Shown: positions 21,897 to 45,948 of the stretch, in pieces
How positions within the stretch are numbered: the stretch's first letter is position 1
Layout: the number at the start of each line of letters is the position of its first letter
Origin: Roseateles toxinivorans
GTDB taxonomy: Bacteria > Pseudomonadota > Gammaproteobacteria > Burkholderiales > Burkholderiaceae_C
Length of the DNA: 63,253 nucleotides
NCBI GenBank assembly: GCA_945898095.1
Contig: CAMDHE010000012.1
Span: 1-63,253, forward strand
Direction: 5' to 3'
The notes under the pieces: model-generated
What the model was told of the DNA's origin: nothing
The model's input: only the letters and a program-made list of their open reading frames with translations
Databases searched by the model: none
Position numbers and translations under genes: made by a program

Positions 21897-21935
21897 GCGG
21901 TTACTTTACCGCAATGTGTGCCTTTTGTCATCAAA

Positions 21936-22373
21936 TCAAGTCGATGGCTCTGCGCCTTCGATGAGCGGGCGGGCGAATTCCCGCGGCTTGCCTTCCTTGT
22001 CGATTGCGACATAGGTCAGGTTGGCCTCGGTGACCTTGACGAAATGTGGATCGGCCGGGTTGCGTTCGGCCGATACCTCGACATGCACGGAGATCGAGGT
22101 GCGGCCGATGCGCGTTACCTGGGCGTAGAAGGACAGCAGATCGCCGATCGAGACCGGTTGCTTGAAGATGAACTGGTTGACTGCCACGGTGGTGACCCGG
22201 CCGCGGGAGACCCGGCAAGGCAGTACCGAGCCCGCCATATCGACCTGGGCCATGATCCAGCCGCCGAAGATGTCGCCATTGGCATTCGCGTCGGAAGGCA
22301 TCGGCATGATGCGCAGCACCAGTTCGCGTTGCCCGATGGCGGAGATGGCAGGATTGACGGAACTGTTGGTCAT
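21936..22373 (-). CDS. yciA: acyl-CoA thioesterase, YciA type
   Basis: A hotdog-fold thioesterase of about 145 residues that hydrolyses acyl-CoA to acid and CoA. The signature SDANANGDIFGGWIMAQVD contains the catalytic Asp (GDIFGGW), followed by GRVTTVAVNQFIFKQPVSIG and YVAIDKEGKPR. All match E. coli YciA. The internal Met of MTNSSVNPA was taken as start; an ATG five codons upstream (22388) is also possible. It is divergent from the ABC exporter gene with about 60 bp between. Confidence 0.88.
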   Translation of the reverse strand: MTNSSVNPAISAIGQRELVLRIMPMPSDANANGDIFGGWIMAQVDMAGSVLPCRVSRGRVTTVAVNQFIFKQPVSIGDLLSFYAQVTRIGRTSISVHVEVSAERNPADPHFVKVTEANLTYVAIDKEGKPREFARPLIEGAEPST

Positions 22374-22436
22374 AGTTTTGCAGAGCATCCTAAGCTGAGA
22401 GAATCAGCGACCATTCTCGCTTCAACTGAAAGTTCC

Positions 22437-24275
22437 ATGCACCCCAGCCACGCGCATTCCGCATCCGCCGAGACCAGGTCGGCAAAATCGCGCACCGATT
22501 GGGCGACCATAGCCAAACTGCTGCCCTACCTGTGGCGTTACCGCTGGCGGGTCTCTTTCGCGCTGGGATTCATGCTCTGCGCCAAGCTGAGCAATGTCGG
22601 CATACCGCTGCTGTTGAAGTCGCTGGTCGACGATCTGGCGATCAAGCCGGGGTCGGCGGCGAGCCTGCTGGTGGTGCCGCTCGGGCTGCTGGTGGCCTAT
22701 GGCGCGCTGCGTTTTTCGACCTCGCTGTTCACCGAATTGCGCGAGCTGACTTTCGCCAAGGCGACCGAGGGCACATCCCGTTCGATCTCGCTGCAGGTGT
22801 TTCGGCACCTGCATGATCTGAGCCTGCGTTTCCACCTCGAGCGCCAGACCGGCGGCATGACCCGCGACATCGAGCGCGGCACCCGCGCCGTGCAATCGCT
22901 GATCTCGTACTCGCTCTACAGCATCGTGCCGACGCTGATCGAGGTGACCTTGGTACTGAGCTTGCTGGCCTACAAGTTCGACGCCTGGTTTGCCTGGATC
23001 ACCCTGGCCGCCTTGGCGCTCTACATCACCTTCACCTTCACCGTGACCGAGTGGCGCACCAAGTTCCGCAAGCAACTCAACGAGCTCGATTCGGTCGCGC
23101 ACAGCAAGGCGATCGACTCGCTGCTGAATTACGAGACGGTCAAATATTTCAACAACGAGGATTTCGAGGCCCGCCGTTACGACGAAAGCCTCGAAAAACT
23201 GCGCCGCGTGCAGCTCAAATCACAGTCGACGCTTTCGCTGCTCAATACCGGCCAGCAGCTGATCATCGCCAGCGCCTTGGTGCTGATGCTGTGGCGGGCC
23301 ACCGCCGGCGTGGTCGCGGGCACGATGACCCTGGGTGACCTGGTGATGGTCAACGCCTTCATGATCCAGCTCTATATCCCGCTGAATTTTCTCGGCGTCA
23401 TCTACCGCGAAATCAAGCAAAGCCTGACCGACCTCGACAAGATGTTCAGCCTGCTCGAGCGCGAGCGCGAAGTCGCCGATCTGCCGGGTTCCACCGAACT
23501 GCTGGTGCAGGGCGCAACAGTCCGCTTCGAGAATGTCAGCTTTGCCTACGACAAGGCCAGGCCGATCCTGCATCAGCTCAGTTTCGAGATTCCCGCGGGC
23601 AAGAAAGTGGCGGTCGTCGGCCCCAGCGGGGCGGGCAAGAGCACCTTGGCGCGGCTGCTGTTCCGCTTCTACGACATCGATGGCGGTCGTATCACCATCG
23701 ACGGCCAGGACATCCGCCAGGTGACCCAGACCAGCTTGCGGCGTTCGATCGGCATCGTGCCGCAGGATACGGTGCTGTTCAACGACACGGTCGCCTACAA
23801 CATTGCTTATGGCCGACCCGGTGCGTCCCAGGACGAGATCGAAGCCGCGGCGCGCTCGGCGCATATCCATGCTTTCATTTCGGCAACGCCCAAGGGCTAT
23901 GCCACGATGGTCGGCGAGCGCGGCCTGAAGCTCAGCGGCGGCGAGAAGCAACGTGTGGCGATTGCGCGCACGCTGCTGAAGAATCCGCCGCTGCTGATCT
24001 TCGATGAAGCCACTTCGGCGCTCGACTCGAGCAACGAGCGCGCGATCCAGGCCGAGCTTGAGTCCGCCGCGCACAACAAGACCGTGCTGGTCGTCGCGCA
24101 CCGCCTGTCAACCGTCGTTGATGCCCATGAAATCCTGGTGCTAGAGGCCGGTCGCATCGTCGAGCGCGGCAACCATGAGCAATTGCTCGCAATGCAAGGC
24201 GAATATGCGCGCATGTGGCGTTTGCAGCAGAGCGGATCCGACGAGCAGCCCGCCGGCGCGTTGCAAGTCGCCTGA
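22437..24275 (+). CDS. Atm1/HMT-type ABC exporter (fused permease-ATPase)
   Basis: 612 residues: six predicted membrane helices over about residues 30-330, then an ATPase domain with Walker A GPSGAGKST (about residue 395), signature LSGGEKQRVAIART, Walker B LLIFDEATSALD and AHRLSTV. The motif LNYETVKYFNNEDFEARRY between the domains is characteristic of Atm1/ABCB7-type half transporters, which export glutathione conjugates or sulfur/metal-linked compounds. The ATG at 22437 was chosen because upstream codons run antisense through yciA. The cargo is not evident from context. Confidence 0.92.
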   Translation: MHPSHAHSASAETRSAKSRTDWATIAKLLPYLWRYRWRVSFALGFMLCAKLSNVGIPLLLKSLVDDLAIKPGSAASLLVVPLGLLVAYGALRFSTSLFTELRELTFAKATEGTSRSISLQVFRHLHDLSLRFHLERQTGGMTRDIERGTRAVQSLISYSLYSIVPTLIEVTLVLSLLAYKFDAWFAWITLAALALYITFTFTVTEWRTKFRKQLNELDSVAHSKAIDSLLNYETVKYFNNEDFEARRYDESLEKLRRVQLKSQSTLSLLNTGQQLIIASALVLMLWRATAGVVAGTMTLGDLVMVNAFMIQLYIPLNFLGVIYREIKQSLTDLDKMFSLLEREREVADLPGSTELLVQGATVRFENVSFAYDKARPILHQLSFEIPAGKKVAVVGPSGAGKSTLARLLFRFYDIDGGRITIDGQDIRQVTQTSLRRSIGIVPQDTVLFNDTVAYNIAYGRPGASQDEIEAAARSAHIHAFISATPKGYATMVGERGLKLSGGEKQRVAIARTLLKNPPLLIFDEATSALDSSNERAIQAELESAAHNKTVLVVAHRLSTVVDAHEILVLEAGRIVERGNHEQLLAMQGEYARMWRLQQSGSDEQPAGALQVA

Positions 24276-24301: not shown

Positions 24302-24934
24302 TCAGCGGCCGCGGGCCTGCCAATCGGCCAGGTCGATGCGCGGCTGTTCGAACAACTCGTTCAGGCGCGCGTACCAGCCGCCGCCATGCATGCGTCCGAC
24401 GAGGTCAAGTTTTTTGACGTCGACATGGCAGCGCTCGGCGTCGAGCACCGCCTCGTCGTCGATATGGATCGCCACCACATTGGCCAATACGATCGAGCGC
24501 ATTTCGCCGAGCTCGATGATTTGCAGCGTCCTGCATTCAAAGGCGACCGGGCTGCCGGAGATGCGCGGCGGCGCCACCTTGGTTGAAGGTAGCGTCGCAA
24601 GCCCGGCCATTTCGAGTTCATTGACCTCGGCTTCGAACTCGATGCTGGTGATGTTCATCGCTTCGACCAGCGCGAAAGGCACCAGATTGATCACGAATTC
24701 GCCGGATTCGCGGATATTGCGCGCCGAGTCCTTAAAGGCCTGGCCATGGGCGCCAATCCCCAGGGCAACTACCGGCGGATTGCCCGACATCGCGTTGAAG
24801 AAGGAGAAGGGCGCTGCATTCAGCCGCCCCTGGCCGTTCTGCGAGACCACCCAGGCGATCGGGCGCGGCAGCACGGTTGAGGTGATCAACTTGTAGACGT
24901 TCTTGCCGTCGAGTTGGTCGGGATCGAAATACAT
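24302..24934 (-). CDS. flavin reductase-like FMN-binding protein
   Basis: 210 residues with the flavin reductase-like split-barrel fold: KLITSTVLPRPIAWVVSQ, NAAPFSFFNAMSGNPPVV, FVINLVPFALVEAMN and the tail WYARLNELFEQPR. Proteins of this type bind FMN and often act as uncharacterised oxidoreductases; the partner or substrate is unknown. It is convergent with the ABC exporter (26 bp apart) and lies upstream, on the same strand, of nothing obvious; the HTH-citrate-synthase-like gene ends 31 bp before its start side. Confidence 0.85.
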   Translation of the reverse strand: MYFDPDQLDGKNVYKLITSTVLPRPIAWVVSQNGQGRLNAAPFSFFNAMSGNPPVVALGIGAHGQAFKDSARNIRESGEFVINLVPFALVEAMNITSIEFEAEVNELEMAGLATLPSTKVAPPRISGSPVAFECRTLQIIELGEMRSIVLANVVAIHIDDEAVLDAERCHVDVKKLDLVGRMHGGGWYARLNELFEQPRIDLADWQARGR

Positions 24935-24965: not shown

Positions 24966-26255
24966 TCAGCCGCGGTAGCGGATGCGTGGCCTCAGCATCA
25001 GGCCGGCCGTGCGTTGTTCAATCACATGGCCGATCCAGCCGGCAGAGCGTGAGATCGTCAGCAGCGCGGCCGCCGAGCGTTCGGGCATTTCCAGGGCATG
25101 ACAGAGCATCACCAGGCCGATTTCCACGCCAGGGCGCATTCCGGTTCTGGACTGCAGTTGGGTGATATGGTCGGCGAAGCGATTCGAGCAATTGCCGCGC
25201 TGCAGATAGCGTTGCGCGGTGGCGAGCAACAGCTGCGCACGCGGGTCGCCATTGGGATAGAGCGGATGGTCAAGGCCAGCCGAGTTGCCGGCAGATCCGC
25301 GCTGTCTTTCGAGCATCCTGCAGAACTGCTCGCCATCACTTGAGTTCAAGAGCAGATCCTCGACCCTGTCACAGGATCGTCTGGACCGCGAACTGCTCTG
25401 GACGCTGAGGGCCGAATTCAGGCAATGGTAGAGGCTCGCTCCGCTTGACGCGGTCAGGCGTACCGCCACGGTCTGCGGTGTCAGCTGATGATCGGCCAGC
25501 AGCACCAGCGCGAGATCGATTGCTTCGGTCGCGGCCGGATCGATTCCAAGCGTTTGCGCAATCTGCGCAGCGATCGACGAAACCGGATCGGCCTCGATGA
25601 ATTTGTTTGATGGCCGCAGATGGTCCAGGCAGTTGACCAGCAAGCGCAGTACCGCACGAGCGCAGGGAATCGTCGTGCCTGCGCGGATGTCGTCGCTGCC
25701 CGTCGCTGAAGCCGCCAACGAAGCGACCAGCAGCGAGAACTGACGAATCGGGTCGACCTTGGACTGTTTGGTCTCCTGCCGCAGCGCGCTCAGCACCGCA
25801 ACTTGCAGCTTGCCTGGCTGCGCCACTTCCCATAACAGCGGATCTTCGCTGAGCACGCCGGTCCAGATCAGTTCGGCAACGTTTTCGAACTTTTCGCCGT
25901 TGTTTGCCAGATCAATCGCGGCAGTGCCGCGATAGCATGGACCTTCGGGCTTGATTTCGGTGATCGATGTGCGCACCACCGGCTGCGACCAGAAGGGTGC
26001 GCCGGACTTCGCATCGCTGCCCTCGACCTTCGATCGTCCGCGCTTGGCGAGTTGTTCGACATCCTCGCGCAGGTACAGAAAACCGCGATGCTGATCGCTG
26101 CGGATGCGCCGCACCAGTCCTCGGCTGACATAGACATAGAGGGTCTGCAACTTGATCCGCAGCAGGCTTGCGACTTCCTGCGCCTTCAGGTAGTGATCGC
26201 CTGTTGTAGCCGGCATGTCGGTTACATTGCGGCCTTTGGTCATTTTTGTCGCCAT
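24966..26255 (-). CDS. HTH-citrate-synthase-like fusion lacking the GPxHG motif
   Basis: 429 residues. Residues 20-75 form a MerR/excisionase-like helix-turn-helix (YLKAQEVASLLRIKLQTLYV, RRIRSDQHRGFLYLREDVE). The rest is a citrate-synthase-like domain (YRGTAAIDLANN, IGDP-type helices, HPLYPNGDPRA, SAGWIGHVIEQR). HPLYPNGDP keeps one active-site His. The usual ADHELN reads ADHQLT, and the catalytic GPxHG loop is replaced by SSSRSRRS directly before CDRVEDLLL. The enzyme is therefore probably not a working citrate synthase; a CoA-ester sensor fused to a DNA-binding domain is one reading. It is divergent from the amidohydrolase operon. Confidence 0.82.
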   Translation of the reverse strand: MATKMTKGRNVTDMPATTGDHYLKAQEVASLLRIKLQTLYVYVSRGLVRRIRSDQHRGFLYLREDVEQLAKRGRSKVEGSDAKSGAPFWSQPVVRTSITEIKPEGPCYRGTAAIDLANNGEKFENVAELIWTGVLSEDPLLWEVAQPGKLQVAVLSALRQETKQSKVDPIRQFSLLVASLAASATGSDDIRAGTTIPCARAVLRLLVNCLDHLRPSNKFIEADPVSSIAAQIAQTLGIDPAATEAIDLALVLLADHQLTPQTVAVRLTASSGASLYHCLNSALSVQSSSRSRRSCDRVEDLLLNSSDGEQFCRMLERQRGSAGNSAGLDHPLYPNGDPRAQLLLATAQRYLQRGNCSNRFADHITQLQSRTGMRPGVEIGLVMLCHALEMPERSAAALLTISRSAGWIGHVIEQRTAGLMLRPRIRYRG

Positions 26256-26279
26256 AGTCGCCTTTATCGCTATTTGACG

Positions 26280-26302
26280 TTGATTATAAAATCAATGTTG
26301 AT
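26280..26302. promoter_or_regulatory. dyad and extra half-site between HTH-citrate-synthase gene and amidohydrolase
   Basis: TTGATT-ATAA-AATCAA (26280-26295) is a perfect 6-4-6 dyad. A third TTGAT follows at 26298-26302, all in an AT-rich 100-bp divergent gap. Its position suits an operator for the adjacent HTH protein; the spacing between TTGAT half-sites is 6 bp, not the 4 bp of FNR boxes. Confidence 0.5.
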
Positions 26303-26355
26303 ATGAGTGTGAGGGAAATTCGGAATCAATCACTGTTGGAACGAAAGGTCGGCCC

Positions 26356-27531
26356 ATGCAGATCATCGACGCCGATGCCCATGTCATCGAGTCTTCGCAG
26401 ACCTGGGCCTACCTCGATCCGGTCTATCACGCCAGGCGACCCCTGCCGATCTCGGTACCGGTTGATACCGATTTCAAGGACTGGAACAGCTTCTGGCTGA
26501 TCGACCGCAAGGTCCGCCATTTCGGCGCCACGCCGATCGAAGGCAATCTGATGGCCTCACGCAAGGCTTATTCGGTAGGCTGTCAGCAATTGACCAGCGT
26601 GGCCGAACGCATCGCGGCGATGGACCGGATGAAGGTGGCGCGTCAACTGGTCCATCCTTCTTTTGCCTTGTCCATCCTCAGCGAGGATGCCGATCTGGAA
26701 GCCGCGCTGTTCCAGAGCTACAACAGCTTCATGGCGAATGCCTGCGCACAGGCGCCCGGGCGGCTTTATTTCAACGCGATCGTGCCGTTCAGGCAGCCTG
26801 ATGTCGCGGTGGCCGAATTGCGCCGGCTGAGCCAACTCGGTGGCATGGCCAGCGTGCTGGTGCGCGGCCTGGAATGGGACAAACCGATGGATCACCCGGC
26901 CCATTACCCGATCTTCGCCGAAGCCGAACGCCTGGGGCTGCCGATGGTCGTGCATCTTGGTCTGGGTTCACCGACGATGTTTCATATGTTCGACGGTCTG
27001 GTGCATCCTGCTGCCGAGAAAAAGACCTTCTACCCGCCTTACTCGCGCCGACTGTTGAGCACCTTGACGGTGCAATACGGCTTTTTCAATCTGATGGAAG
27101 GTTCGTTGCTTGACGACTTTCCCAAGCTGCGTTGGGCTTTTCTCGAGGGTGGCGGCTGTACCTGGATGGCGGCAGCGTTGCGCACGGTCGAGCGCGGCGG
27201 CCGCAAGGTAGCCCACGCTTTTGCCGACCAGCGCATCCATGTCGGCTGCGAACCTGACGACGACATCAGCTATGCCGTCAGCGTGATCGGTGAGGACGCC
27301 TTGCTGGTGTCGAGCGACATGCCGCATTTCGATGAAGCCGCGCATGAGTCGATCGCCGAGGAATATGAGCAGCGCGGCGATCTGTCCGAGCCGCTGCTGA
27401 AGAAGATGTTCAGCGGCAATGCCGAGCGCTTGTTCGGTTTCAATGCAGCAACCGGAGGTGGGAGCATGGGCAGCATAGAGATCCTTGAACGCGGCGGCGC
27501 GCGCTTTGCGTCGCCAATGCGGGCTCGCTGA
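26356..27531 (+). CDS. amidohydrolase-family (ACMSD-like) enzyme
   Basis: 391 residues of the amidohydrolase-2 group, which includes ACMSD and aromatic acid decarboxylases. The metal-binding start is MQIIDADAHVIES (D-x-H). PMVVHLGLGSP supplies a later His, and LLVSSDMPHFDE provides the C-terminal Asp; FSGNAERLFGF is the usual end of the fold. Likely substrates are aromatic or ring-cleavage acids, for decarboxylation or hydrolysis, but none can be named. It leads a run with a NitT/TauT-type importer, suggesting an uptake-plus-degradation unit. Confidence 0.86.
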   Translation: MQIIDADAHVIESSQTWAYLDPVYHARRPLPISVPVDTDFKDWNSFWLIDRKVRHFGATPIEGNLMASRKAYSVGCQQLTSVAERIAAMDRMKVARQLVHPSFALSILSEDADLEAALFQSYNSFMANACAQAPGRLYFNAIVPFRQPDVAVAELRRLSQLGGMASVLVRGLEWDKPMDHPAHYPIFAEAERLGLPMVVHLGLGSPTMFHMFDGLVHPAAEKKTFYPPYSRRLLSTLTVQYGFFNLMEGSLLDDFPKLRWAFLEGGGCTWMAAALRTVERGGRKVAHAFADQRIHVGCEPDDDISYAVSVIGEDALLVSSDMPHFDEAAHESIAEEYEQRGDLSEPLLKKMFSGNAERLFGFNAATGGGSMGSIEILERGGARFASPMRAR

Positions 27532-27621
27532 TGCTTGCCGACAAGCATCCGGCCGACCGAGCCGCAGCTGACCTATGGGCCAAGGCATGGCCCTGCTGCC
27601 GAGCTGACTGAAGTAGCGAAT

Positions 27622-28695
27622 ATGCGAACCGTCATCAAGCAGTTATCGGCGCTGAAAAAATGGTTTTGCCTGCCACTGCTGATGGCCTGTCTGTGCAGTT
27701 TGTCGATCGCCCAGTTGCCCAAGCAGCCATTGACCGAGGTCAGGGTCGGTATATTGAATAGTCTGGCGGAAGCGCCTACTTTTCTGGCTGACGAACGCGG
27801 CTATTTCCGCGAAGAAGGCATCAAGATCGGCTTTGTGCGCTTCGACAACACGGCGGACATGAGTACGCCGATGATCACCGGCGACCTCGATGTGGCTTCT
27901 GGCGCACCGACGCTGGGTTTGCTGAACGGCTCATTGCGTGGCCTGCAGTTCAAGTTGGTCGCCGATAAAGGGCGCAATTCAAAGGGCCATGGCTTCAATG
28001 CGATCGTCGTGCGCAAGGAATTGATCGATTCGGGCAGGGTCAAGACGATTGCCGATCTCAAGGGGCTCAAGGTCGCTTCACCCTCGCGCAATTCGCCGAT
28101 GGAATTCCAGCTCGACATTGCCTTGCGTGCCAGCGGATCGAAACTGGAGGATGTCAGCATCGAGCAGATGGGATTTCCTTCGATGTTGCAGGCGCTGTCG
28201 AACAAGGCGGTCGATGCGGCCTTGCTGATCGAGCCTTTCGTTGCCAATGCGATCAAGCGGCAGATCGCCACCCGGTTGATCGGTTTCGACGAGACCTCTC
28301 CGAACTTCCAGATCGCGGGCATCATTTATGCCCCTGATTTCGGCAAGCGCAGGCCCGAAATCGCGAACAAGTGGATGGTTGCTTATCTGCGCGGTGTACG
28401 CGACTACCTCGACGCGATCGAGGGCCGAAGTTCCAGGCAGGAGATGTACGCAGCGCTGGGCAAGCAGATTCCCACCTTCAAGGATCCGGTCGCAATGGCC
28501 AATGTGGTGTTCCCGGGTTTTGATCCCGATGGCTATCTGTACCTGCCGACGATCTCGGACAGCATCGATTGGCATGAGAGCCGCGGCTTTCTGAAGCAAA
28601 AACCCAAGCTCGCCGACCTGATTGACTACCAGTACATCGAGTATGCCCATAAGCGGCTTGGCCGCAAGGGCCCGGCCCAGCCAGCGCCAAAGTGA
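27622..28695 (+). CDS. NitT/TauT-type ABC transporter substrate-binding protein
   Basis: 357 residues. The signal peptide is hydrophobic (LPLLMACLCSLSIAQ) and followed by an SsuA/THI5-like domain: VRVGILNSLAEAPTFLADER, GYFREEGI, GDLDVASGAPTLGLLNG, ALSNKAVDAALLIEPFV. Such proteins deliver sulfonates, nitrate, thiamine precursors or aromatic acids. The frame is open 29 codons further up, but the ATG at 27622 begins a normal signal peptide. It follows the amidohydrolase gene by 90 bp. Confidence 0.88.
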   Translation: MRTVIKQLSALKKWFCLPLLMACLCSLSIAQLPKQPLTEVRVGILNSLAEAPTFLADERGYFREEGIKIGFVRFDNTADMSTPMITGDLDVASGAPTLGLLNGSLRGLQFKLVADKGRNSKGHGFNAIVVRKELIDSGRVKTIADLKGLKVASPSRNSPMEFQLDIALRASGSKLEDVSIEQMGFPSMLQALSNKAVDAALLIEPFVANAIKRQIATRLIGFDETSPNFQIAGIIYAPDFGKRRPEIANKWMVAYLRGVRDYLDAIEGRSSRQEMYAALGKQIPTFKDPVAMANVVFPGFDPDGYLYLPTISDSIDWHESRGFLKQKPKLADLIDYQYIEYAHKRLGRKGPAQPAPK

Positions 28696-29124: not shown

Positions 29125-29982
29125 ATGCCTGATCGAGATCAACGCCATTGGCGTCCTATGAGCTCGTTGCCCTTGGGGTTTGAAACCGATGCGCCGGCAG
29201 ATGCAATCCGGGCGCCGATCATCGTGCTGGAAAAGGTCGGTAAGCGCTTCCTGACCGAGGCTGGCGAATATGAAGCCCTCGCCGATTTCGACCTGAAGAT
29301 ACGCGAGGGCGAGTTCGTCTGCCTGCTCGGCCCTTCAGGCTGCGGCAAGACCAGTTTGCTGCGCATACTCGCCGGCCTGGACTCGCACAATTCGGGCGTA
29401 TTGCGCATCCAGGAGCCCAAGGGAGATCGACCCTTCATGTCGGTCGTGTTTCAGGAAAATTCGATCTTCCCCTGGCTTAACGTGCGCGACAACGTCGCTT
29501 ATGGCCTTCGCTCGCGTCAGGCAACCGCGGCCTTGGTCGACTTGCGTGTCGATCAGTTGCTGGAGACGGTCGGCCTGACGAGCTTCCAGCGCCTCTACCC
29601 GCACCAGTTATCGGGTGGCATGAAGCAGCGGGTGTCGATCGCACGGGCCTTTGCCAATGATCCGCAACTGCTTTTGATGGACGAGCCGTTCTCGGCACTC
29701 GACGAACAAAACCGCAGCCTGCTGCAGGAAGAGTTGCTGCGCATCTGGAGCCTGAGCGGCAAGACTGTCCTCTTCATCACCCATTCGATCGACGAAGCCT
29801 TGTTCCTCGGCGACCGGGTGGTGGTGATGGGCGGTCGGCCCGGTCATGTGATGGCCGACATCACCGTGCCATTCCCGCGGCCCCGCCAGCAATACGCCCT
29901 CAAAGCCAGCCCTGCCTATGGGGCAATGGTGGCTGAAGTGGCCGAATTGATCCGCCTGGCGATGCAGGTCAGCCCTGCATGA
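29125..29982 (+). CDS. NitT/TauT-type ABC transporter ATP-binding protein
   Basis: 285 residues. Walker A GPSGCGKTS, Q-loop VVFQENSIFPWLNV, signature LSGGMKQRVSIARA, Walker B LLLMDEPFSALD and the switch His in FITHSIDEALFLGD are intact. These are typical of SsuB/TauB-like ATPases. An internal ATG at 29158 (MSSLPLGFE) is an equally possible start; neither has a clear Shine-Dalgarno. It partners the permease 40 bp downstream and the binding protein upstream. Confidence 0.9.
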   Translation: MPDRDQRHWRPMSSLPLGFETDAPADAIRAPIIVLEKVGKRFLTEAGEYEALADFDLKIREGEFVCLLGPSGCGKTSLLRILAGLDSHNSGVLRIQEPKGDRPFMSVVFQENSIFPWLNVRDNVAYGLRSRQATAALVDLRVDQLLETVGLTSFQRLYPHQLSGGMKQRVSIARAFANDPQLLLMDEPFSALDEQNRSLLQEELLRIWSLSGKTVLFITHSIDEALFLGDRVVVMGGRPGHVMADITVPFPRPRQQYALKASPAYGAMVAEVAELIRLAMQVSPA

Positions 29983-30022: not shown

Positions 30023-30847
30023 ATGCAAAAAGAAACTCTGACCGAGATTCCGGCGCTCGCCGACATCGGACAGGCTGAGCTGCGGCGCAGGCGGCTGCAG
30101 CGAGTGCTGACAGTCGCCAGCCCCTTTCTGGTCCTGCTGGCCTGGGAGTTGGTGGTGCGCACCGGCATGCTCGACAGCAGGATCTTCCCGGCGCCGTCGA
30201 TGATTGGCGAAACCTTCCAGCGGCTGCTGCTTTCGGGCGAGTTGATGGCGCATCTGAGCGTCTCGCTGCTGCGTATTGGTGCAGGGTTCCTGATTGGCGC
30301 CATTCCCGGGGTGCTGCTGGGCACCGCGATGGGTTTGTCGCCGCTATTGCGCGCCATCGTCGCGCCTATCGTCGCCTCGCTCTACCCGATCCCGAAGATC
30401 GCCATCTTTCCGATGGTGATGGCCTTGTGCGGGATCGGTGAACTGAGCAAATACATGTTGGTCGGGATTGCGGTTTTCTTCTTCATGGTCATCAACACCT
30501 ATACCGGCGTGGCCAGCCTGGACCGGATTTTCTGGGACGTGGGGCGCAGTTTTCGCGTCTCCAGGATGCGGCGTCTGCTGACCATTGCTTTGCCAGGCGC
30601 GTTGCCGATGATCGCCGCCGGCGTCAGGCTCAGCCTGGGCGTTTCGCTGCTGGTGCTGGTCAGCGCCGAGTTCGTCGGCGCCAAGAGCGGCATTGGCTAC
30701 CTGGTCTGGAATTCCTGGCAGATCTTCGACGTCGAGGCGATGTATGTCGGCATCGTCGTGATTGGCGCGCTCGGCTGGATCTTCTTCGCCGCCATCGACG
30801 AGTTGGAACGGCGCTTTCTGCCCTGGGCCGCAGCCAACCGGCATTGA
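30023..30847 (+). CDS. NitT/TauT-type ABC transporter permease
   Basis: 274 residues with six predicted helices in a MetI-like domain. FPAPSMIGETF after the first helix, LYPIPKIAIFPMVMALCGIG and the coupling loop VGRSFRVSRMRRLLTIALPGALPMIAAGVRLSLG are typical of SsuC/TauC permeases. GGAGAAGG precedes the ATG. It completes the importer encoded with the amidohydrolase. Confidence 0.92.
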   Translation: MQKETLTEIPALADIGQAELRRRRLQRVLTVASPFLVLLAWELVVRTGMLDSRIFPAPSMIGETFQRLLLSGELMAHLSVSLLRIGAGFLIGAIPGVLLGTAMGLSPLLRAIVAPIVASLYPIPKIAIFPMVMALCGIGELSKYMLVGIAVFFFMVINTYTGVASLDRIFWDVGRSFRVSRMRRLLTIALPGALPMIAAGVRLSLGVSLLVLVSAEFVGAKSGIGYLVWNSWQIFDVEAMYVGIVVIGALGWIFFAAIDELERRFLPWAAANRH

Positions 30848-44541: not shown

Positions 44542-45948
44542 ATGACTTCGATCCGTTCTGCTGCTGTTGCCGGCAGTTTTTATCCCTCCGACCCGACGGC
44601 TTTGCGTGCGATATTGACGCATGGGCTGAGCGCTGCGGTCCTGCCCAAGGCAGGACCGGTTGGCGCCGCCGGCCATCCGCCCAAACTGCTGGTGGTGCCG
44701 CATGCCGGCTATGTCTATTCGGGTGCCGTGGCGGCAATGGCCTATGCGCAACTGGCCCCATGGCGAGGTCGCATCAGTCTGGTGCTGCTGCTGGGCCCCG
44801 GTCATCGCGTGGCCATACGCGGGCTTGCGGCCCCGACGGTCGATGCCTTCGAAACGCCGCTGGGCCGGATTCCGCTCGACCTTGAAGCCTTGGCCAAGCT
44901 GGCCAAGCTGCCACAAATGGTCTGGGCCGACAGGCCCCATGCCCAGGAACATTCGCTCGAGGTGCAACTGCCCTTTCTGCAGATGGTTCTCGGCGATGGT
45001 TTCAAGCTGGTGCCCCTGGTGGTTGGCCAGGCCAGCGCTGCCGAGGTGGCGGCCGTGCTCGATTGCCTCTGGGGCGGGGATGAGACCTTGATCGTCATCA
45101 GCACCGACCTGTCGCATTACCTGCCCTATGCCCAGGCGCAGGCCAGCGATGCTTCGACCGCGCAACGCATCCTGAACTTCGCCACCGATCTGCGCGGTGA
45201 AGAAGCCTGCGGTGCCGCGCCCTTGAATGGTGCTTTGCTGGCGGCGCGCCGCCATCAATTGCGGTCAAGGTTGCTGGGCCTGATCAATTCGGGCGACAGC
45301 CCTGCAGGCGACCGCAGTCGCGTCGTCGGCTATGGCGCGTTGGCCTTCGACCCGGCGCCCGATGCCTTGGCAGGTGAGCTCGAACCGCTGGGGAATTCGC
45401 TGTTGGCTGCAGCGCGCCAGGCGATCGAGGTAGCGCTTGGTCTGAGGCCCGAGGCGTTGCCTGCAGCGGCAGAGTCAGCCGAACTGCAGCAAGCGGGGGC
45501 TAGCTTCGTCTCTTTGCATGACAGGCAAGGCAGATTGCGTGGCTGTGTCGGCAGGCTCGAAGCGAGCCGTCCGCTGCTCGACGATGTGCGCGCCAATGCC
45601 CTGGCTGCGGCCTTCCATGACAGCCGCTTTGCGCCCTTGCGAGCCGAGGAATGGCCGGGGATGCAGCTCGAGGTCTCCTTGCTCGATGCAGCCATGCCGC
45701 TGCAGGCTGGCAGCGAGTCCGAGGCGCTGGCTGCCTTGCGACCGGGCATTGACGGCGTGATCCTTGAATGGCGGGGTCGCCATGCCACTTTTCTGCCGCA
45801 GGTCTGGCAGCAGTTGCCCAAAGCCGCTGACTTCATGGCGGCGTTGAAGGTCAAGGCCGGTCTGCCTGCTGATTTCTGGGCCCCTGATCTGCAGTTGTCG
45901 CGCTACCCGGTGCGCAGCTTCAGCGAGGCCGTTCATGGAGGCCAATGA
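44542..45948 (+). CDS. AmmeMemoRadiSam proteins B (MEMO1) and A (AMMECR1), fused
   Basis: 468 residues. Residues 1-270 are a MEMO1-like domain (AGSFYPSDPTALRAI, VPHAGYVYSGAVAAMAYA, LGPGHRVAI, STDLSHYLPY), with the His residues of the extradiol-dioxygenase-like fold. Residues 285-465 are an AMMECR1 domain (ASFVSLHDRQGRLRGCVGRL, RFAPLRAEEW). Proteins A and B are usually separate; here they form one chain. Translation is coupled (ATGA) to the radical SAM partner downstream. AAGGAG precedes the ATG. The reaction of this conserved three-part system is not known to me. Confidence 0.92.
   Translation: MTSIRSAAVAGSFYPSDPTALRAILTHGLSAAVLPKAGPVGAAGHPPKLLVVPHAGYVYSGAVAAMAYAQLAPWRGRISLVLLLGPGHRVAIRGLAAPTVDAFETPLGRIPLDLEALAKLAKLPQMVWADRPHAQEHSLEVQLPFLQMVLGDGFKLVPLVVGQASAAEVAAVLDCLWGGDETLIVISTDLSHYLPYAQAQASDASTAQRILNFATDLRGEEACGAAPLNGALLAARRHQLRSRLLGLINSGDSPAGDRSRVVGYGALAFDPAPDALAGELEPLGNSLLAAARQAIEVALGLRPEALPAAAESAELQQAGASFVSLHDRQGRLRGCVGRLEASRPLLDDVRANALAAAFHDSRFAPLRAEEWPGMQLEVSLLDAAMPLQAGSESEALAALRPGIDGVILEWRGRHATFLPQVWQQLPKAADFMAALKVKAGLPADFWAPDLQLSRYPVRSFSEAVHGGQ

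Follow-up and report, generated by a model that had tools for sequence, protein, structure and literature searches.

A helix-turn-helix protein of Roseateles toxinivorans with a citrate synthase fold and an altered catalytic loop: a probable one-component regulator

The 63,253-nucleotide contig CAMDHE010000012.1 of Roseateles toxinivorans (assembly GCA_945898095.1), analyzed here over its whole length and called the window below, carries on its minus strand a gene (24966-26255, ATG start) for a 429-residue protein in which a helix-turn-helix (HTH) domain is joined to a citrate-synthase-like domain. Proteins of this architecture are referred to as HTH-CS. The DNA-binding domain is HTH_17/MerR-like (residues 22-73, 26037-26192) and contains the family core TLYxYVSRG, and the citrate-synthase-fold domain spans residues 89-424 (24984-25991). 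Within the latter, the loop that corresponds to GPxHG of citrate synthases reads SSSRSRRS (residues 287-294, 25374-25397). A predicted operator with three half-sites, ATCAACATTGATTTTATAATCAA, lies on the same strand at 26280-26302, 25 bp upstream of the start codon, and is followed by a divergent gene of the Amidohydro_2 family (26356-27531, plus strand). Our current hypothesis, to which we assign a probability of about 0.78, is that the protein is a one-component transcription regulator with a citrate-synthase-fold sensor and that it no longer makes citrate. The reading is based on the domain make-up, the clade-wide loss of the loop, purifying selection, the conservation and position of the operator motif, and the changed genomic partners, all of which were computed.

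The fusion of an HTH to a citrate-synthase-like domain, proposed in an earlier sequence-only reading, was borne out by Pfam, AlphaFold, and Foldseek. The Citrate_synt model (PF00285) matched residues 89-424 with an E-value of 3.1e-43 (148.6 bits). The HTH_17 match to residues 22-73 reached 26.7 bits, 0.3 below the curated cut-off of 27. The same model scored 38.6 bits in L105, a relative that retains the loop His, and in the window protein the TLYxYVSRG-core HTH directly precedes the citrate synthase domain. By the Pfam models of the MerR family, the window protein falls short of membership, with 14.3 bits for MerR_1 (cut-off 21.6) and 12.5 bits for MerR (cut-off 28.2). Every listed NCBIfam citrate synthase model was also far under its cut-off (e.g., 92 bits against 421 for TIGR01800). 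An AlphaFold model, for which the window protein and 69 relatives were aligned (70 sequences), had a mean predicted local distance difference test score (pLDDT) of 86 and a predicted template modeling score of 0.78. The model predicts an HTH (pLDDT ∼90), a low-confidence linker at residues 76-91, and a mostly helical second domain, and its best Foldseek matches in the PDB were methylcitrate and citrate synthases (E ∼1e-12). The sole other relative of citrate synthase in the genome (E ≤ 0.001) is located on contig C59 and has an intact GPAHGG.

An alignment with solved and genomic citrate synthases revealed SSSRSRRSC where GPxHGG is expected, with Ser291 at the position of the GPxHG His. This motif, HPLYPNGDPRA, and ADHQLT all read as previously described. 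His256 (the His of the ADHE motif, 25488-25490, minus strand) and Asp337 (the Asp of the DPR motif, 25245-25247, minus strand) are kept, as are His330, Arg339 of the DPR motif, Arg403, Glu413, and Arg422; the His of FLHLLHG is replaced. From enzymology, we take these kept and lost positions to be catalytic or carboxylate-binding. In citrate synthase, the GPxHG loop polarizes the oxaloacetate carbonyl and touches CoA, and an Asp and two Arg meet the carboxylates. L003 and L004, the orthologues in two further genomes of this genus (82% and 81% identity over the full length), carry SSSRARRACDRIED in the same frame. It had been considered that close homologues might all read GPxHG there, which would point to a local error; the loop of both orthologues is SSSRARRA, in frame. 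No GPxHG was found in the other two coding-strand frames across the loop in any of the three genes. The dN/dS ratio of the window gene against each orthologue is ∼0.23 over the whole gene (Nei-Gojobori; 0.106/0.456 and 0.112/0.483) and ∼0.18 across residues 283-300, where there are few sites. The gene is under purifying selection.

To place the altered loop within the family, 93 HTH-CS proteins were compared. The set consists of the window protein, 13 proteins from the genomes of relatives, and 79 loci from a contig search with an alignment as the query; a single-protein query of the contigs gave no match. The alignment query yielded 80 loci, the best among at least 570 relatives, so the counts are biased toward the kin of the window protein, and L043, a duplicate on the contig of L004, was dropped from them. 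The GPxHG His is present in 59 of the 93 proteins and absent from 34, of which 30 belong to the group of the window protein and four (L010-L013, same genus and family as the window) read FNGG at the loop and have also lost the Arg of RPR. All 59 His-retaining rows have, besides the loop His, both the ADHE His and the DPR Asp. Outside the clade of the window protein, the loop His is kept in 59/63 proteins, against 0/30 within it, where the residues in its place vary (T, V, A, I, L, S, F, N) and the ADHE His is replaced by Asn in 7/30. The DPR Asp is found in 30/30 members of the clade and in 93/93 rows overall. One member comes from a Hyphomicrobiales metagenome-assembled genome (MAG), and the other labeled ones are Burkholderiales, genera of that order, or Betaproteobacteria.

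A tree was inferred from 100 sequences, namely 92 of the 93 HTH-CS proteins plus eight plain citrate synthases, with the loop columns excluded and the truncated L074 omitted; a quick method was used, and support is given as Shimodaira-Hasegawa-like approximate likelihood ratio (SH-aLRT) values in place of bootstraps. The 33 His-less rows fell into two clades, one of 29 rows that includes the window protein (SH-aLRT 100) and one of the four FNGG rows (SH-aLRT 100). Forcing them into a single clade cost 74.5 log-likelihood units and gave an approximately unbiased p value of 0.0008. By alignment and tree, then, the window protein sits within a wholly His-less clade, and loss of the loop His is a trait of that clade and is not peculiar to the window protein. 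Because a single clade is rejected, the tree also indicates that the FNGG clade lost the His separately.

The best surviving alternative, although an unlikely one, is a bifunctional "trigger" protein: an active enzyme of altered specificity (e.g., a lyase, or one that catalyzes a different acyl-CoA condensation) with the added capacity to bind DNA and regulate its operon. The retention of His256, Asp337, and the Arg positions, the methylcitrate and citrate synthases as nearest folds, and the three complete motifs in all His-retaining relatives are consistent with such an activity. It is opposed by the absence of the loop His from 30/30 members of the clade, by the variable residues that replace it, and by the further loss of the ADHE His to Asn in seven of them. 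The citrate synthase fold of the window protein is probably catalytically dead.

Part of the evidence for a DNA-binding role comes from the operator. The 4.7 Mb genome contains a single exact match to the pattern ATCAANNTTGATN{5,8}ATCAA, and it lies at 26280-26302, in the region that separates the HTH-CS gene from the divergent amidohydrolase gene; the sequence-only reading had named this very site. ATCAACATTGATTTTATAATCAA is identical in both orthologues, while the flanking intergenic bases differ. When gapped palindromes of half-length 5 were ranked with no prior motif, ATCAA-N2-TTGAT came first, with occurrences in 39/82 upstream regions (15/29 in the clade of the window protein and 24/53 in the others) against a maximum of 3 in shuffled sequences. 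A third half-site lies 5-8 bases away, usually downstream, which gives the full element RTCAA-nn-TTGAT-n(5-8)-ATCAA. Counting matches of at least 13/15 positions to the ATCAA form from -220 to +40, and leaving out L077 (too little upstream sequence), the operator was found in 71/92 regions, namely 23/29 in the window's clade, 44/59 in the His-retaining group, and 4/4 in the FNGG group, all four of which (L010-L013) have a perfect copy. Shuffled regions gave 0 to 0.7%. The operator is present in Alpha-, Beta-, and Gammaproteobacteria, Myxococcota, Chloroflexota, Actinomycetota, Deinococci, and acidobacterial classes, a spread in keeping with the conservation of the TLYxYVSRG core in the HTH.

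The position of the sites was analyzed in the 79 loci (1.197 Mb), where 49 of the 56 sites with at least 14/15 positions fall within -250 to +60 of an HTH-CS start. Of the remaining seven, four coincide with or slightly precede the start of the next gene after an HTH-CS gene (L046, L047 twice, and L065), two are upstream of a plain citrate synthase (L101 and L122), and one is elsewhere (L060). A weaker site (13/15) is located in L054 between the HTH-CS gene and the next gene, which encodes a TctC receptor. In L046 (second gene), L047, L054, and L065, the catabolic genes lie downstream on the same strand and the site is at the start of the next gene. Two sites in L042 (13548-13710) lie between a short-chain dehydrogenase/reductase gene and a divergent D-2-hydroxyacid dehydrogenase gene, ∼2.7 kb upstream of the HTH-CS gene. 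This suggests a target promoter distant from the gene of the regulator, and we would guess that the short-chain dehydrogenase/reductase gene, which is on the same strand as the HTH-CS gene, shares an operon with it.

Plasmid loci provided a test independent of motif discovery. Out of 44 records found, 13 were fetched and 12 scored, and the operator was present in 9/12 (shuffles 0.5%); no operator was found upstream of the HTH-CS gene of L127, a Burkholderia cepacia plasmid whose protein keeps the loop His. The unscored record, L124 (12025-13247, an Acidovorax carolinensis plasmid), has the HTH-CS as two overlapping coding sequences in different frames and looks interrupted.

The genomic partners of the family differ between its branches. 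A plain citrate synthase, mostly on the opposite strand and upstream, is encoded in 39/59 His-retaining loci, in 0/29 loci of the window's clade, and in 0/2 of the FNGG group (Fisher p 2e-10 for His-retaining loci against the window's clade, a value that ignores relatedness). Four short open reading frames (ORFs) that clustered with HTH-CS (L054, L061, L067, and L074) are MarR-type by eye and were not counted as citrate synthases. In the Melainabacteria/Cyanobacteria/Obscuribacterales MAGs L080, L081, and L089, the plain citrate synthase and HTH-CS genes are in tandem and nearly touching; no site of at least 14/15 was found in these three loci. In Pseudoxanthomonas and Luteimonas (L118, 1558-3793; L094, L095, L103, L106, L108, L110, L113, and L114), a His-retaining HTH-CS gene, preceded by the operator, lies opposite a GPKHGG citrate synthase gene, and several of these loci have a prpB-like gene in between. 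In Pseudoxanthomonas L118, the one of these loci scanned with the models, the two genes on the opposite side are prpB (methylisocitrate lyase) and prpC (2-methylcitrate synthase), both models being above cut-off. A His-retaining HTH-CS gene is divergent from a family III CoA-transferase gene in L145, L147, L107, L105, and L035, so that citrate synthase is not the sole type of partner.

In the clade of the window protein, 23/30 HTH-CS genes (29 loci, one of which has two) are divergent from the upstream neighbor. At least one of eleven catabolic or transport families occurs in 28/29 loci of this clade and in 2/61 others; the genome of L003 was left out of this count (contig of 3.9 kb), the genes were called mechanically, and each family name derives from one representative. 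The commonest family is the TctC receptor (16 loci), followed by a family, F2, that we take to be Pht5/NMT1-like and that had no library match at the limits used (13), aldehyde dehydrogenase (10), class II aldolase (9), a thiamine pyrophosphate (TPP) enzyme (7), two families of Rieske oxygenases (6 and 4), a VanB-type reductase, named by analogy with an annotated plasmid gene (5), Gfo/Idh/MocA (5), and a cupin protein (3). A major facilitator superfamily transporter is found in 6 loci, and its nearest model, for aromatic-acid/H+ symport, scored below its cut-off.

Similar company is kept by loop-His-less HTH-CS genes on plasmids. In Massilia sp. WG5, the gene is near those of a Rieske protein, a VanB reductase, NadC, and an aldehyde dehydrogenase; in Caballeronia zhejiangensis, near a TPP enzyme and ring-hydroxylating dioxygenase subunits; and in Paraburkholderia largidicola, near a cupin protein, an aromatic-acid transporter, and a dioxygenase subunit. 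The plasmid examples were not placed in the tree, and the loops of L142, L144, and L148 were unreadable. A 7.8-kb contig of a MAG labeled Bordetella parapertussis (L045; the label may be wrong) has its HTH-CS gene divergent from a Rieske oxygenase gene.

Taken together, the family-wide operator, the divergent neighbor, and the loss of the loop His in 30/30 of the clade support, by computation, the proposal of the sequence-only reading that the protein is a transcription factor and not an enzyme. The N-terminal MerR/excisionase-type HTH would bind RTCAA-nn-TTGAT-n(5-8)-ATCAA at 26280-26302 and would control its own gene and the divergent amidohydrolase and ABC-transporter genes, by either repression or activation. 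The citrate synthase fold, probably dimeric by analogy, would sense a metabolite of the regulated pathway. The same reading had also proposed an acyl-CoA or 2-oxoacid sensor, which is not supported by the present analysis; a CoA ester is the less likely effector because the lost loop is the part of the fold that touches CoA, whereas the carboxylate-contacting Asp and two Arg are kept. For these reasons, and because TctC, a tricarboxylate-type receptor, is the commonest neighbor in the clade, our tentative guess, at somewhat less than even odds, is that the effector would be a di- or polycarboxylate in free form, from the regulated pathway.

Several observations weigh against a regulator that acts through this operator. 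The motif was mostly counted on the set in which it was discovered, the 12 plasmid loci excepted. It is a weak predictor of HTH-CS genes and alone is not diagnostic: RTCAANNTTGATN{6,7}ATCAA has 19 exact sites in 99 relatives including the genome itself, of which nine immediately precede known HTH-CS genes, two, in G038, correspond to the L042 sites, and eight are elsewhere (the reversed control pattern gave 0). A stricter form in a class-wide draw of 369 genomes gave 14 sites, three at HTH-CS genes and 11 not. The genome has a second site of the RTCAA form with n6-7 (contig C11, 27936-27958), and there is a 14/15 site at 45264 in the window. Six of the 29 clade regions are under the threshold (L046 first gene, L054, L063, L065, L066, and L074); no site was found near the gene in L063 and L066, and the contig of L074 ends there. 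A scan of 26150-26450 for a sigma-70-like promoter found none. As for the neighbors, the window is the one clade locus of 29 with none of the eleven families. The enrichment is also confounded by taxonomy, as the clade is nearly all Burkholderiales, and Burkholderiales are rich in TctC-type receptors; it is support and not proof.

A very improbable alternative is that a different regulator, for instance FNR/CRP, owns the motif and has HTH-CS as just one of its targets. The FNR box is TTGAT-N4-ATCAA, and the half-site letters are equal to those of the operator; the many class-wide matches away from HTH-CS genes also fit. However, the spacing is mostly N6-N7 (or inverted, N2) and not N4, one exact ATCAA-form site per 4.7 Mb is too few for a global regulator, and the motif goes with HTH-CS genes in several phyla. 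Slightly less probable still is that the protein is a noncatalytic subunit that tunes a true citrate synthase as a heteromer, with the HTH being secondary. The plain citrate synthases of the His-retaining loci, above all the tandem pairs, would suit such a partnership, but no plain citrate synthase gene was found in any of the 29 clade loci, and the operator and divergent genes favor a DNA-binding role. The assembly is a draft of 209 contigs, but the chance that the altered loop stems from faulty sequencing or assembly, or that the gene is decaying, is negligible, as the loop is alike and in frame in two other genomes, dN/dS is ∼0.23, and GPxHG is absent from the other coding-strand frames.

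The predicted targets of the regulator extend beyond the divergent Amidohydro_2 gene, which was assigned by Pfam and has a relative in the same place in L033. It is followed on the plus strand by a gene for an NMT1/SsuA-type solute-binding protein, predicted to be in the same operon (27535-28695), an ABC transporter ATPase (29125-29982), and an ABC transporter permease (30023-30847). A flavin-reductase-domain protein (24302-24934, minus strand) is encoded directly downstream of HTH-CS after a gap of 31 bp, also in L033. Compared with 26356-28695 of the window, the related row of L033 (2797-8973, G017) has three extra genes, which encode a 346-residue protein without a Pfam match, a gamma-glutamyltranspeptidase, and a cupin protein. 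The ABC-transporter ORF at 21918-24275 of the window (785 residues) has an extended N-terminal part overlapping ORFs of the opposite strand, and its true start is probably further in.

With the citrate/2-methylcitrate synthases PrpC and GltA (PF00285), the window protein shares the fold and His256, Asp337, Arg403, and Arg422 (Pfam, phmmer, and Foldseek). It differs from them in its added HTH, in the lack of the GPxHG His and the FLHLLHG-type His, and in scores far below the NCBIfam cut-offs. HTH-CS proteins named "citrate synthase", "citrate synthase family protein", or "citrate/2-methylcitrate synthase" in RefSeq have the same architecture, the TLYxYVSRG core, and, in the majority of the cases examined, the same kind of operator; those outside the window's clade are distinguished by the loop His and the plain citrate synthase counted above. 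MocR/GabR, in which an HTH is fused to an aminotransferase fold, are one-component regulators derived from enzymes. The principle of reusing an enzyme fold as a sensor behind an HTH is alike, but the fold, the HTH, and the operator differ. The His-retaining HTH-CS genes beside prpB/prpC of Pseudoxanthomonas occupy the place where a propionate regulator such as PrpR or "PrpQ" is expected, and a paper on propionate regulators may deal with a relative of this kind. No description of HTH-citrate synthases as regulators was found in the accessible parts of the open-licence PubMed Central literature. Regulators that combine an HTH with an enzyme fold are thus a known kind; the citrate synthase fold in this role, the family-wide operator, and the His-less clade were not found in print within those parts.

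With somewhat better than even confidence, we propose that HTH-CS proteins are an unrecognized, multi-phylum family of one-component regulators with their own three-half-site operator code. The family would have begun beside citrate or methylcitrate synthase genes, with a sensor that is a copy of the fold of the regulated enzyme, and one Burkholderiales branch would have shed the catalytic loop, parted from the enzyme gene, and been recruited to control operons for aromatic and carboxylic-acid catabolism. Annotations present genes with this architecture as citrate synthases, in some cases with a term for the tricarboxylic acid cycle; if they encode regulators, those annotations and the metabolic models that include them are wrong. 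The family would then illustrate clearly how an enzyme becomes a sensor, with branches that kept the loop next to branches that lost it, and the operator motif could be used to seek HTH-CS targets, including the ring-hydroxylating oxygenase operons on plasmids of soil bacteria.
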